Translations under genes and position numbers: made by a program
NCBI RefSeq assembly: GCF_900182835.1
Contig: NZ_FXUB01000004.1
Coordinates: 62,001 to 126,000 of the forward strand
DNA from: Desulfurobacterium pacificum
Lineage (GTDB): Bacteria > Aquificota > Aquificia > Desulfurobacteriales > Desulfurobacteriaceae
Direction: 5' to 3'
Length of the DNA stretch: 64,000 bases
Notes under the pieces: model-generated
What the model saw: the letters and a program-made list of their open reading frames with translations, nothing else
Told to the model about the DNA's origin: nothing
Databases searched by the model: none
Part shown: positions 6,591-56,413 of the stretch, one piece after another
Layout: each line of letters opens with the position of its first letter
Numbering within the stretch: position 1 is the stretch's first letter

Positions 6591-7628
6591 TCAACTCTTC
6601 CTAACAACTATTTTACTACCATCGGTAATCCTTCCAACAACAGAGCACCACTTCACACCTTTCTTTTTCATTTCGTCAACTAACTTTTCCACTTTCTCTT
6701 CAGGCACAGAAATAAGCAATCCACCAGAGGTTTGAGGGTCATACAGTAAAGACTTCACAGTTTCATCAACATCCTCAAAAACCACGCTATCACCAACGTA
6801 ATCAATATTCTCATACGTTGCAGCAGGAAGCAATCCCATAGAAGCGTATTCATAAGCTCCCGGCAGAAACTCTAACTTATCCGCGTAAATTTCAGCTCCA
6901 ACACCGCTAAACTTCACCATTTCAAAAAGATGTCCCAAAAACCCAAAACCCGTCACATCAGTGCAGGCATTCACGCCAACGCCAACCATAACTTCACAAG
7001 CTTCCTTATTCAGCGTAGCCATTACATCAGACACCATCTTAATTTCTTCATCAGAAGCCATATCAGCCTTGATGGCAGTAGTTAGAACGCCTATCCCAAG
7101 AAGCTTAGTGTAAACCAGAAAATCCCCCACCCTCGCCTCACAATTCCTCACAACCTTTTCAGGATGAACCACTCCGGTAACGGCAAGCCCGTATTTCGTC
7201 TCAAGGTCATCAACGGTATGACCGCCAACAAGGCTTACACCTGCTTCCCTCAATTTAGAAGCACCGCCTTCCAGAATCTTTTTTAAGAAATCTTCTGGCA
7301 CTTTGCACGAAGCAAACATAACAAGGTTAATAGCCGTAACAGGCTTTGCTCCCATAGCGTAAACGTCAGAAAGGGCATTTGCTACCGCTATTTGACCGTA
7401 AACGTAAGGGTCATCAACAACCGGAGTAATAAAGTCAGCAGTTTGAACCAAGGCAAGACTTTCTGTTAGTTTGTAAACGCCAGCATCTTCCGCCGTCTCA
7501 ATACCAACCAAAACGTTATCGTCAGTCGGAAAATCAATACCTTTCAGCACTTTCTCAAGCCCGACCGGGCTAAGCTTTGCCCCTCAGCCAGAAGCTCTTA
7601 CCGTCTGAGTCAGCTTAAACTTTTCCAA
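6591..7628 (-). CDS. selD: Selenide, water dikinase (selenophosphate synthetase), selenocysteine-containing
   Basis: Makes selenophosphate from selenide and ATP, the selenium donor for selenocysteine and selenouridine. The frame is open from TTG 7628 (GGAGG seven bases upstream), giving 345 residues with one in-frame TGA at 7586-7584, codon 15. The context ASG-TGA-GAKLSP aligns with the catalytic Cys of E. coli SelD (GAGCGCKISP), so the TGA encodes selenocysteine. A hairpin with a GGUC loop follows (7554-7574). Downstream are GGHTVDD, TDVTGFGFLGHL and DPQTSGGLL, all family signatures. Calling the start at the ATG at 7550 would lose the active site. It is the first gene of the operon into rimO. 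Confidence 0.95.
7554..7574 (-). promoter_or_regulatory. SECIS hairpin of selD
   Basis: In the mRNA the structure starts 13 nt from the U of the UGA. The 5-bp upper stem AGCCC/GGGCU closes a GGUC loop. One bulged U lies on the 3' side, and the lower pairs CUU/GAG include one U-G pair. A guanosine in the first two loop bases and a GU step are what bacterial SelB recognises, as in the GGUC-containing loop of E. coli fdhF. The bulge is on the opposite side from the E. coli bulged U. Position and loop together make the assignment convincing. Confidence 0.8.
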
Positions 7629-51790: not shown

Positions 51791-51815
51791 AAAAAAGGGG
51801 GCTTAATAAGCCCCC
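51791..51815. terminator. Bidirectional terminator between cysS unit and the cytochrome gene
   Basis: GGGGGCTT/AAGCCCCC stem with an AAT loop. On the minus strand it is followed by TTTTTT, so it mainly terminates the cytochrome gene; on the plus strand it can end the cysS unit. Confidence 0.85.
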
Positions 51816-51838
51816 TTACATTACCATCTAAATTTCAA

Positions 51839-51967
51839 CTATTGCTTTTTCTTTCTCCTTCTGCCAAACATGAGTCCCAACAATCCAGACAGCATAGCTC
51901 CAAAGGATGCCAGTCCAGAAGAAGCAGTTGTTGCAGGTGCAAGAGAACATCCTCCTCCACCACCAGA
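51839..51967 (-). other. C-terminal tripartite sorting signal of the cytochrome
   Basis: The last 42 codons encode SGGGGGCSLAPATTASSGLA, then a membrane helix ending GLLGLMFG, then RRRKKKQ. A small-residue/Cys motif, a helix and a basic cluster is the pattern of bacterial CTERM signals (for example Synerg-CTERM or MYXO-CTERM) that are cut and often lipidated at the Cys. It suggests the cytochrome is anchored to the outer cell surface or membrane after processing. Confidence 0.6.
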
Positions 51968-54900
51968 AGCAGTATTAGTTGAAGTTGTTATATAACTTGA
52001 TGACGGAATACCAAGCGCCACTGTAATAGTGGAGGTTCCACGAGTCAGATTTCTTGAAGATAAATCAAAAGAAACCGTTAATGCAGATTCTTCTTTAGAA
52101 ACTATTTTATAAGGCAATTTTTCACCATCCCTCACAGCAATAGGTTCGACATCTCCAGCTACTTGAAGAGGAACGTTCTCAAAATTTACTGTAATAGACG
52201 TAGCATTTGTATCTGGCTCAAGCTCTACTGGAGGAACAAGAATAACAGAAAGCTTGTTATCTTTGGCAAACTCCTCTATTGACGTAGAATTAGTGATTAT
52301 AGAAGTTACCGATGGAATAGATGCTCCTTCCACGCTCACCGTTATTTCTCTTTCTCCTATACCAGGCAGAGAAACACTCATTTGTACCTGGTTATCTGTT
52401 ACATTGCTTATTTCAATCTCTGGAACAGTTATTGAAGAAACTTCAGTAGATGCAGGACCTACAACAGCAAAATAACTTAATTCAGTTGTTGAAAAAGATA
52501 TATATGGGTTTGGAGATTGAGGATCAATAACTTGAGAAGTTATCACGCTCCAGTGTTTACCATCTTCACTCTTCAACAGTAAGACTTTACCAGTTACCTT
52601 AAACACACTATACGGAAGTGTAAAAGTGACTGGAAGGTTAAATCTATTATCCTTAGTTTCAATTCTATAAATCCCTCCCGCAATCACAGGAGTTTGAACT
52701 CCTAACGACTTAGCAGCATCAAGTAAAGATTCTTCTATCGCGCCATCCTCTACTTTTTCAACTTTTATTAAAGTAGGAGTATCCACACTTCCAGCCGGAT
52801 AGGAAATAGTTACATCATTAACCATTACAGAATCAGACTTACCAGGAGTTGCTAAAGCATAAGCCACATACTCCTTACTCTCAACAGGAACAGAAACAAA
52901 GTTCATGAACGCACCTTGCGTTGCGCCCATAACTGTTTTCCCATTAATTGTTTTTGTTTCCAAATCAAAAGGTAACTTCCAGCCACCATACTTCTTAGCA
53001 TCTTCTATCGCTTCTGATGGCAACCCAAATGGAACTAAAGTAATAAATCTACCCTTAGTAGCATCTCCACTGTATACTTCAGGGCTCAATCTGCTCTTTG
53101 AAGGATCATCACTATGGCAGGCTTTACAGGAAAGAGGTTTATCATCTAATCCATGAGAACCCAATGCATAGCCTGCAGGAAGAACCCCATGGTCTATACC
53201 AAACGGCGCCATTCCAATAAACATAACCGGATTTGGATCCTTTTCACCCTCCGATTCAAGAACCTGTTTTAACGCATCCTTCATAGCTTCATATTCAGTT
53301 TCTGTGTCAATCTCAGGAACCATATCACCATCATCATCGCATACAAAACTATTATTAATTAACTTAACACAAACCTTTCCTGTATTGTTATCTACAATTA
53401 AGCCAGGAACTTCTTTAGTTTGGTTATCATTTTCCGGATCAATAGTTGAACCACCAGAAGGAGTTAAAGGAAATCCTTCAACCGCAGCATTCAGTTCTCT
53501 AATGTAAAGAACCCTGTTTGTAGAAGCATCCATCCACGTAGCAACAATTATCGGGTTAATCAACCCTGCTCTTAGAACCTGATTCCCATTATCATCTATC
53601 GTATAGCGTTTAACAATTACTGGTGCCCATCTATACGGGAATAAATAAGGCTTCATTAAAGGATTCGCACCAGTAGCCCACATTCCAAACATGGTTCCAT
53701 TGTCATTCCACCTCATTAAAGCTCTATAAGGATCCATATCTATCATCGTCATAGGAACAACTACATCACCACCATTATCAGTAGTCTGAGTAATTGTATA
53801 GGCAAAGTTAACACCGTAAGTCGGAGCAAATGCAGGAATTGCCCATTCTGGTGGGAACTGCTGAATAGTTCCATCGCTATTGAAAGTCCTAAATCTGTTA
53901 TCAAAGTTATTAGAATAACCAACTAAATCATTGAAGAATCTAAATGTCCAGTAAGTCTTGTAAGGAATATGGCACACTTGGCATTCAATTTTTTGCAAGT
54001 GAATATAAGCTGTATTCTCTCCATCAACCTTCATAAAGAAGGGCTCATGTGCTGTTGCCGCTGCTGCTTCAGAACCCCAGTGACACTTAACACAAGTCTG
54101 AAGCGAAGGATTGTAATCAAGAGCTGGGTCAACTTCACCTGCCGGGTCATTACCTTTCAAGAAATTATGCGGGTTATGATAAGCTTTTTCTTCTTCACTC
54201 AAGTTGTCCTGCCCGTGACAAGAAAGACAAGACAAATCTCCCTTATCTTTATCAAAGTGAACATCATAACCTATAGGTAAACCTTCGGTAGAAGAAATAC
54301 CATTTACAACTGTAGAATTGGCTATTTCACCGTTAGAATCTATAGCAATTGGAGCTGTAGAGTTATCATCCTCACTTTCTCTACTAAATACTGCGCCTCT
54401 TTTAACAACATCTGCTCCCATTCCTATAATGCCACGACGGACATACCAGGAAGGAAATGCTTGCTTCTGAAGAATCGGAGGAAGTTGATTATACATAGGG
54501 GTTCCATATAAAGGATTAGGCCAAACATTTTTCTCATCTGGCATGGCAAAATGACACTGGGCACACATATAAGTCAAAGCATCATCTTTATTTACCGTAG
54601 GTTGTATTTTAGCCACTCCGTCTTCATCACTACTATCAGCTGAACAAAGAGTATAGTGTCCTCCCGTCTTAGGTCCTGTTTCTAAAATAGGAAGATTCAC
54701 TTTTAACACTTTCTCACCACTATCGTCTCCGCTTTCTGCTAATTTGGCGTAATAAGTAACAGCCTTAAACGTTCCATCTGATTGTTTCTCAAGCCTCACA
54801 AAAGCAAGTGGATAGTAAGAAAGTGTTTCATTGTCACTATTTATAGCGCCTTTTAAAGATACTCCCATTAACGTTCCACTATCTGCCCAGCCAAAGAAAA

Positions 54901-56335
54901 ATCCAGCCCTTGCAAGCCTGACGAAAGGAACAGTAGAATTGGTCGGATCATAAGTAAAATTATTACTCATAGTCGTAATTCTTAAGAACATTCCCGAATC
55001 GACATAAGGCTGACCTTCAGTTGCTGATTCATAGAAAGCATTTCTTAAATAATCTCTCGCTGAAAAGTTCGGCGCACCAGGGTCTAGGAAAAACGTTCTG
55101 GTGAAATTACCCAAATCAGGTGCTGTAGTTGCATTGAATGTACAAATAGTTGAATTATCCTCAGGATTATAAATTCTAAGATTTATCAAACCATCAAAAT
55201 AAGCAGTAGCATTAGATAACATTCCTCTCTTTATATACTCAGTAAGCTCTTCAGCAACTAAAATTCTTAAATTTAAGTTTTCAGTAGCATTAATGTTACT
55301 CAAACAATTCACTATATCTGGACCATAATAAAGACTAACAATCCTTCCCAACGGATTAGAGTAAAAGTTAGCTGAATCTATTGTATAGTTATCAGCAATC
55401 TCTGTCGCATTCAAAGAAGGCGGAAAACCTAAAGATATCTCTACTACATTCCCATCAGCATCCTTTTTTTCAAAAACAAAAACTCTTGGATTTGCTGGTG
55501 TTGGATTATCCGCATACCACATTCCAGAACGAACAGACATATCATCTGAAGAACCCACTTGTCTATCAGCATGGCAGAGGAAACAATCTACATCAAGAAC
55601 ACCACTTTTCTTCCAGTTAAATTTATGGGGTTTTCCTGTATATCCTCTCGCATACTCATCTGGAGTATATGAGAACAAATCCCCATCTACCTCTTCATCA
55701 CTATAAGTGGCGTTGGAGAAAAATCCTGTTCCATCAGTATCGTTATCCCAACTCTCTTCTATATCGTGACGAACTCCCGTTTTCCTATCAAACTCCAAAA
55801 TTCCACCGGAGTGACAGGAAGCACATGTAAAAGCTTTATCAGGCGTTCCTAAGTCAAAATCATACTCAGGCTTTGCCTCATGACCAAAGTATGTAAGACC
55901 CGGATCTTCTGAAGGATTCTTAGCCGCCAACTGGCGGTAGGAAGGAGGTCACCAAGCCCCATCATCACCAAATGACCTTATAAACTTTCTCCAATCTTTT
56001 CCTTCAAGCACCCTTTTAGCACCAAAATCATCCGACATATCTTCCCAGCCACGACCGATGTGATAGGCAGCGTGAATAGGACCTGGTTCCTTTACTCCAC
56101 CACTTACATCACCAGTAACATCGGTATGACATGCACCACAAGTGGCTTCCCAACTAACAGGCTGCCCAGCGCAGTAAGTAACTCCCCCTATGGTTACATT
56201 ATCAGTGCAGTTCAACGTAATAATATTTCCGTTAATGTCTTTCAAATCTACAGGATCATGACCATAAGCTGATGCCACTAACCCCGTTAAAATCAACGAA
56301 CTCAAAGTTAGCGTATACTGCCATTTTCTCCTCAT
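51839..56335 (-). CDS. Octahaem c-type cytochrome with an in-frame TGA, probable selenoprotein
   Basis: One frame of about 1,498 residues, broken only by TGA at 55951-55949 (codon 129). ATG 56335 has GGAGG eight bases upstream and gives a signal peptide (RRKWQYTLTLSSLILTGLVASAYG). Eight CXXCH motifs: CGACH (66), CASCH (171), CFLCH (251), CAQCH (591), CLSCH (703), CVKCH (748), CQVCH (785), CKACH (1070). The TGA lies in GAW-TGA-PPSYRQL between motifs 1 and 2, and a hairpin follows. The downstream part has no signal peptide or ribosome site, so it needs the upstream part. Residues 1100-1450 are haem-free; the end is SGGGGGCS, a helix, GRRRKKKQ. Function unknown; a sulfur-compound or other respiratory reductase is a guess. 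Confidence 0.8.
55917..55943 (-). promoter_or_regulatory. SECIS-like hairpin downstream of the cytochrome TGA
   Basis: In the mRNA, CCGCC pairs GGCGG around an AGUU loop. A single bulged C on the 3' side, UA/UA, a C/A mismatch and UUC/GAA extend it to 10 pairs. The core UA-bulge-CCGCC stem starts 13 nt from the U of the UGA, as in selD. One of the first two loop bases is G, as bacterial SECIS elements require. The bulge geometry matches selD's. Confidence 0.6.
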
Positions 56336-56355
56336 CGCTTCAACCTCCAAAATTG

Positions 56356-56377
56356 ATTCATTTAAATTTAAATGAAT
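56356..56377. promoter_or_regulatory. Perfect 22-bp palindrome upstream of the cytochrome gene
   Basis: ATTCATTTAAA followed by its exact complement TTTAAATGAAT, with no mismatch. It lies directly downstream of the predicted start point and 21 bp before the ATG, which fits a repressor operator or mRNA hairpin. A second imperfect dyad (TTCAAGTTTAAATTTGAA, 56410-56427) overlaps the -35 region. Confidence 0.6.
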
Positions 56378-56384
56378 ACACTCT

Positions 56385-56413
56385 ATCTTAACTTATAAGA
56401 TTTGAACTTTCAA
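56385..56413 (-). promoter_or_regulatory. Putative promoter of the cytochrome gene
   Basis: Minus-strand TTGAAA (56413-56408) and TAAGAT (56390-56385) with a 17-bp spacer. The predicted start at about 56378 is just upstream of the 22-bp palindrome. ruvB ends at 56438 on the same strand, so the cytochrome has its own promoter. Confidence 0.5.

Follow-up and report, generated by a model that had tools for sequence, protein, structure and literature searches.

A TGA codon within an octahaem reading frame

The question raised by this locus is whether a TGA inside a long reading frame separates two genes or encodes selenocysteine (Sec) within one. In the window (the whole stretch of DNA analyzed, 64,000 nt), the minus strand reads from an ATG at 56335 to a TAG at 51841–51839, with one in-frame TGA (55951–55949) and no further stop. 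The ORF upstream of the TGA contains a signal peptide and one CXXCH motif; the ORF downstream contains seven CXXCH and could start only at a TTG (residue 136), before which stands CCTCC instead of a ribosome site. When the TGA is read through, the product is an octahaem c-type cytochrome of 1,498 residues with U129 between haem motifs 1 and 2. A sequence-only reading of the same DNA had described two in-frame ORFs split by this single TGA, with these contents, and an eight-haem read-through protein with Sec129; the frame, the ORF sequences, and the translation confirm that description. The gene and its flanking signals are as follows.

51839..56335, minus strand: whole gene including the TGA, octahaem cytochrome with predicted Sec129 (reading frame and TGA conserved in 36 genes)
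55949..55951, minus strand: in-frame TGA, predicted Sec129 (from the reading frame and relatives)
56261..56335, minus strand: signal peptide, residues 1–25 (from sequence; conserved in relatives)
56344..56348, minus strand: ribosome binding site GGAGG (from sequence)
56385..56413, minus strand: promoter-like site TTGAAA-17-TAAGAT (consensus match only)
51795..51817, minus strand: intrinsic terminator-like hairpin and T run (consensus match only)

Because of the promoter-like match (56413–56385) and the terminator-like hairpin (51817–51795), the cytochrome gene is probably a single-gene unit. Its neighbors, as judged by sequence, are ruvB-like upstream and cysS-like downstream (convergent). No hint of a substrate was seen among the neighboring genes of the window. 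The eight haem motifs, each of them invariant, are located as follows.

56126..56140, minus strand: haem 1 CXXCH, residues 66–70
55811..55825, minus strand: haem 2 CXXCH, residues 171–175
55571..55585, minus strand: haem 3 CXXCH, residues 251–255
54551..54565, minus strand: haem 4 CXXCH, residues 591–595
54215..54229, minus strand: haem 5 CXXCH, residues 703–707
54080..54094, minus strand: haem 6 CXXCH, residues 748–752
53969..53983, minus strand: haem 7 CXXCH, residues 785–789
53114..53128, minus strand: haem 8 CXXCH, residues 1070–1074

Conservation of the UGA among relatives

Relatives were collected with a read-through search of 60 relatives and by searching 136 Aquificota genomes with profiles and with proteins; in these genomes they are confined to the Desulfurobacteriaceae. 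UGA-bearing genes number 36, in 17 genomes of that family, and form three paralogue groups: F1, the orthologues of the window gene (13 genes); F2, long paralogues (14 genes); and F3, a compact form (9 genes, complete copies of 804–919 residues). The UGA stands at the same column in 36/36 genes, inside [W/L]-U-[P/A]-P-[S/A]-YRQLA, and is never replaced by another stop. A TGA shared at one column by 36 genes from 17 genomes excludes chance or assembly error as the cause of the frame continuity.

A fourth paralogue group, F4, is without UGA (six copies, one interrupted by a stop). It has Ser at the Sec column (codons TCA, TCT, or AGT) and has lost the remaining motif. In the tree, every group can be split off by a single branch; F1 pairs with F2, F3 pairs with F4, and a single change separates U from S; the tree has no outgroup, so that the change is undirected. 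Cys homologues are the usual confirmation of a selenoprotein. The alignment of homologues at this column, proposed earlier as a search for Cys or TGA, gave TGA in all 36, Cys in none of the 136 Aquificota genomes, and Ser in the fourth group. Cys homologues are a supporting and not a necessary criterion; the predicted Sec cytochrome ExtKL is likewise without reported ones (PMC1914089).

To look beyond Aquificota, a single-query GTDB scan was run, and it gave one close relative only. No relatives were found on plasmids, nor in an IMG/VR protein search; the one IMG/VR match to the DNA pattern was a chance match on an unrelated phage contig. The gene of one relative (L069) lies next to a cluster encoding a 28-haem cytochrome, a cytochrome b561, and an NHL-repeat protein.

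A frozen hairpin downstream of the UGA

The codons following the UGA can form a hairpin resembling a SECIS element, with two overlapping features.

55925..55939, minus strand: block TACCGCCAGTTGGCG, core of the SECIS-like hairpin (no differences among the 36 genes)
55924..55937, minus strand: predicted stem–loop CCGCC-AGUU-GGCGG, loop at 55932–55929 (fold prediction)

The YRQLA codons (Y133 TAC, R134 CGC, Q135 CAG, L136 TTG, A137 GCG) show no difference, even at synonymous bases, in 36/36 genes. In the alignment of F1 and F2 (23 rows), 220 invariant residues have more than one possible codon, and seven of them use a single codon throughout; five of those seven are the consecutive codons 133–137 that build the hairpin. 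F3, though very distant from F1 and F2, has identical bases at the hairpin codons. The frozen codons give the stem–loop CGCC-AGUU-GGCG, with one further pair in F1 and F2. The stem starts 11 nt past the UGA and the AGUU loop 16 nt past it. In a set of 31 genomes, the 12-mer CGCCAGTTGGCG occurs 33 times (the reversed control pattern, 0 times); the 30 that were retrieved each sit at one of these UGA codons, and the remaining three are assigned by position to F2 genes. Matches occur in 15 of the genomes, precisely those 15 of the set that carry these genes.

A hairpin frozen in this way has the appearance expected of a SECIS that SelB reads. Taken alone, it folds modestly better than shuffles (z -1.74). 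Covariation neither supports nor refutes the fold because the hairpin pairs never vary. The conservation of YRQLA is partly RNA-driven, and the protein-level case for the motif is therefore weaker than it appears; the W/L before Sec and the prolines after it lie outside the hairpin. The SECIS-like hairpin with its invariance at the codon level, a feature absent from the sequence-only reading, is the strongest evidence for Sec.

Sec machinery and the reading of the UGA

The genome (1.59 Mb, 99.9% complete) contains selA (618 bits), selB (432 bits), selD (369 bits), and a tRNA-Sec (79.7 bits; anticodon TCA by ARAGORN). The selD carries its own UGA in RASG-U-GAK (about 7586–7584), after which comes a hairpin whose loop is GGUC, in agreement with the earlier statement that this gene itself encodes Sec. 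The components that the sequence-only reading had named for a search (selA, selB, and tRNA-Sec) are all present and, together with the TGA in 36/36 homologues, they support its interpretation of the codon. We estimate at about 0.93 the probability that UGA129 is translated as Sec. The conserved UGA and hairpin in the 36 genes mark a new family of selenium-dependent cytochromes, probably respiratory in function.

If the UGA were instead a real stop or a regulatory switch, the locus would give two proteins, or premature termination would control expression. Annotation with the standard code does yield two ORFs. However, the second has neither ribosome site nor signal peptide despite its seven haem motifs, its only start is a TTG falling inside the hairpin, and the parts before and after the UGA are conserved together, as a single protein, in 36 genes in which the UGA never becomes another stop. 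Termination at this codon is thus very improbable. Equally hard to credit is the insertion of a different amino acid at the UGA (Trp, or one from near-cognate read-through), a reading with no specific support: TGA is an ordinary stop in the window (15 of 50 long ORFs), so that the genetic code is not reassigned, and the full set of sel genes, the TCA anticodon of tRNA-Sec, and the frozen hairpin at the place expected of a SECIS all speak against it. A pseudogene, a sequencing error, code reassignment, and a two-gene operon were rejected on the conserved TGA (36 genes), the frozen codons, and the use of TGA as a normal stop.

The octahaem scaffold and octahaem tetrathionate reductase

The eight CXXCH motifs are in register across all four groups F1–F4. 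The closest curated model is TIGR04315, of octahaem tetrathionate reductase (OTR), to which the window protein scores 25.7 bits and F3 proteins 39.7 and 41.5 bits; both fail its curated cut-off of 375, at which window-type proteins would go unnamed. An OTR-like octahaem protein (189–193 bits) is present in three Desulfurobacteriaceae genomes without F1–F4. The one tested matches the structure 1SP3 (E 9.7e-36), and Cys64, between haems 1 and 2, is common to both. With hhalign, F3/F4 align to these OTR-like proteins at 98.9% probability (E 1.6e-17) with haems 3–7 in register, whereas the comparison led by F1/F2 (window protein) reaches only haem 1 (46.9%). The window protein is linked to OTR via F3, whose eight CXXCH occupy the same columns as its own. 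Because the F3/F4 profile comparison puts haems 3–7 in register, the octahaem scaffold is probably common to OTR and F1–F4 by remote homology. Searches of solved structures using the F families gave no match. AlphaFold2 models of residues 24–340 and 24–1100, from a two-sequence alignment of the window protein and L036, were discarded (pLDDT 28).

Like OTR, the window protein has eight CXXCH, and in both a chalcogen residue falls in the interval from haem 1 to haem 2 (Sec129 here, Cys64 in OTR). Unlike OTR, window-type proteins are two to three times longer and have a C-terminal sorting signal. Cys64 was reportedly described as an active-site residue in the 2004 paper on the OTR structure. When U is written as C, the columns of Sec129 and Cys64 agree in some aligner settings only. 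Their equivalence, seen in a first MAFFT run (U as C), was gone with U masked and in most settings, and was not retained.

Invariant His residues outside CXXCH number seven in F3 and eight in F1 with F2. Since F3 has seven such His for eight haems, one haem seems to have no His shared by all groups, which is what a single catalytic haem would lead one to expect. The vacant place might be taken by Sec, Lys, or a substrate, or stay empty. In OTR, Lys153 is presumably a haem ligand. No conserved Lys was found at its counterpart in F3, where the DGDGKI stretch has K, R, Q, or no counterpart. A GenBank-annotated Sec-containing protein, WP_331457571.1, is listed under TIGR04315 in a 2026 survey of prokaryotic selenoproteins (PMC13188914). 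The findings on the window family suggest that Sec was built into large OTR-related octahaem proteins and kept there with an unusually frozen SECIS.

Export and probable surface anchoring

The protein ends in a candidate sorting signal.

51842..51970, minus strand: C-terminal sorting signal, residues 1456–1498, Gly-rich with Cys1463, then hydrophobic helix and basic tail (conserved in all complete relatives)

Its C-terminus reads GGGGGCS-helix-RRRKKKQ. MYXO-CTERM-type sorting involves an invariant Cys, a hydrophobic helix, and an Arg-rich tail in proteins with an N-terminal signal peptide (PMC11980579). The window cytochrome likewise has a signal peptide and a C-terminal Cys motif, helix, and Arg/Lys tail, but it scores below the cut-off of the TIGR03901 model (12.5 bits vs. 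20). As for a processing enzyme, the rhombosortase model reaches 28.2 bits in the genome against a cut-off of 84. By analogy, the signal peptide, the haems, and the Gly/Cys-helix-basic C-terminus suggest that the protein is exported and then anchored on the outside of the cell.

The OmcA/MtrC decahaem cytochromes are similarly large, exported, multihaem, and surface-anchored, and weak local matches to them occur (TIGR03507, PF22113); the window protein is, however, below all cut-offs of these models. Sec is not known in cytochromes of the OmcA/MtrC type. Their anchor is an N-terminal acylated Cys (PMC7096707), whereas that of the window cytochrome is probably the C-terminal signal.

Proposed role of Sec129

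The analysis establishes the reading frame, the Sec machinery, the conserved UGA, the constraint on the RNA, the conserved haem motifs and His, and the group's remote homology to OTR; from these we infer surface anchoring, a catalytic role of Sec, and a class of substrate within the following scheme. SelA, SelB, SelC, and SelD of the genome almost certainly insert Sec at UGA129, directed by the short SECIS hairpin CCGCC-AGUU-GGCGG, which starts 11 nt past the UGA and is itself translated as YRQLA. Once exported and loaded with haem, the cytochrome would be held at the cell surface, probably by the C-terminal Gly/Cys-helix-Arg signal. The His-ligated haems would pass electrons to a site in the region of haems 1 and 2, where the selenol might attack or hold the substrate, or sit at a catalytic haem. 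It is rather likely that the cytochrome works as a terminal reductase whose acceptor is found outside the cell or in the periplasm (a sulfur compound, an oxyanion, or a metal). By analogy with the Cys of TsdA, the selenol would most likely act on sulfur, selenium, or another oxidized acceptor; in TsdA, the active-site Cys ligates the haem (PMC5146829).

The main competitor, which we consider unlikely but still the best of the rivals, makes Sec129 a structural or redox-switch residue (for example, in a selenenylsulfide or in metal binding) in a protein that is mainly an electron conduit and not an enzyme. All the proteins have the eight conserved CXXCH and many conserved His, and all complete copies have the C-terminal anchoring signal; the weak matches to the MtrC/MtrF surface cytochrome domain, the 28-haem cytochrome cluster beside the L069 gene, and the existence of the Ser group F4 point the same way. 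On the other hand, the UGA, the hairpin, and Sec are kept in three paralogue groups, and retention of this kind is usual only for catalytic residues. In addition, the mass of the window protein exceeds 7 kDa for each haem, a ratio typical of catalytic multihaem proteins (PMC7096707).

The sequence-only reading had proposed that a Sec beside a haem could be a distal ligand or a catalytic selenol. Sec129 might indeed be a direct axial (selenolate) ligand of a haem iron, or leave and rejoin that iron in turnover as the Cys of TsdA does. The basis for this idea is the seven invariant extra His of F3 for eight haems and the absence here of a conserved counterpart to the Lys that fills the gap in OTR. 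We hold direct ligation to be improbable; if it did occur, the cytochrome would be a natural selenolate-ligated haem enzyme.

Comparison with other predicted Sec cytochromes

Multihaem selenoproteins are already known, and the window family is a further variant among them. ExtKL of Geobacter (GSU2937-2936, NF040886) is a predicted Sec multihaem cytochrome (PMC1914089, PMC5877670), also listed in the 2026 survey (PMC13188914), whose consulted passages do not name the window family. Both are multihaem c-type cytochromes in which an in-frame UGA leads to two annotated ORFs, and both have hosts with Sec machinery. ExtKL has a mass of about 49.5 kDa and carries five haems toward its N-terminus, whereas the window cytochrome has eight haems in its 1,498 residues and Sec after the first of them. 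No SECIS could be identified in ExtKL (PMC1914089), in contrast with the invariant hairpin of the window family. The window protein does not match NF040886 at E<=1, and no Desulfurobacteriaceae gene reaches its cut-off of 250 (the best, at 21.9 bits, is elsewhere in the genome). ExtKL has been tied to electron transfer, with a preliminary link to selenite reduction (PMC1914089, PMC5877670).

The genes described here add a selenoprotein family, made up of three paralogue groups, in the Desulfurobacteriaceae, a family of hydrothermal-vent thermophiles, and offer a clean test case for the action of a selenol beside a haem chain. Because standard-code annotation splits each gene in two, proteomic and metabolic surveys would miss one of the largest cytochromes of these bacteria. 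As to gene order in the paralogues, the F2 genes are followed by a gene for a PPIC-type foldase at five of the five loci read.

Distribution and weak matches

The three genomes of genus g7 (G016, G007, G012) lack the UGA-containing cytochromes, that is, the orthologues of the window gene (F1), the long paralogues (F2) and the compact form (F3), as well as the UGA-free paralogues with Ser at the Sec column (F4), yet they encode an octahaem protein resembling octahaem tetrathionate reductase (OTR). The two distributions are complementary.

L132, L133, L134 (genomes G016, G007, G012): OTR-like octahaem proteins of genus g7, 189-193 bits

The model for ExtKL, the predicted Sec multihaem cytochrome of Geobacter, gives two weak matches in the present genome (21.9 and 18.5 bits), far below the cut-off of 250.

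G000:C6:54483-54698 and 55730-56035 (L138): weak ExtKL model matches

In one IMG/VR phage contig (L129, 4889-4915), the UGA-plus-hairpin pattern is matched by chance, in an unrelated frame.

Upstream regions and neighboring genes

The window cytochrome gene has a perfect palindrome (0.01 expected in the window) downstream of its promoter-like site and ahead of its start codon. The palindrome, present only in part in the same-genus relative L018, is a possible operator.

56356-56377: perfect 22-bp palindrome, ATTCATTTAAATTTAAATGAAT

F2 genes, L023, L025 and L029-L032 among them, share conserved direct repeats of the TTGTAAA type, TTGTAAACnTTTTGTAAA, immediately 5′ of the ribosome site; these could be a regulator site. 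At five loci, the F2 gene is followed by a gene of which the copy tested encodes a peptidyl-prolyl isomerase of the PPIC type; this may be a dedicated foldase.

L068 12675-13967, L071 5407-6672, L072 13960-15243, L073 4156-5421, L074 12669-13955: gene following F2

In genome G003, the F1 gene adjoins a cluster of multihaem cytochromes with 6, 7, 6, 3 and 28 CXXCH; genes for cytochrome b561 and for an NHL-repeat protein are also there.

L069 109-8049: multihaem cytochrome cluster

The gene next after F4 encodes a C_GCAxxG_C_C protein with two CXXCH.

F3 and F4 proteins, and selD

C-terminal of haem 4, F4 and most F3 proteins carry an EF-hand or dockerin-like loop, DINGDGKITPxD, which may be a calcium site.

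L084-L091 (F4); L063, L066 (F3): EF-hand or dockerin-like loop

In one F3 protein (L096, genome G009), the Sec (U) stands in U-A-P instead of U-P-P; its hairpin is the same as elsewhere.

The selD gene also has an in-frame UGA, followed 3′ by a hairpin, the GGUC loop of which is unlike the AGUU loop of the SECIS-like cytochrome hairpin.

7584-7586, minus strand: selD in-frame UGA, motif RASG-U-GAK
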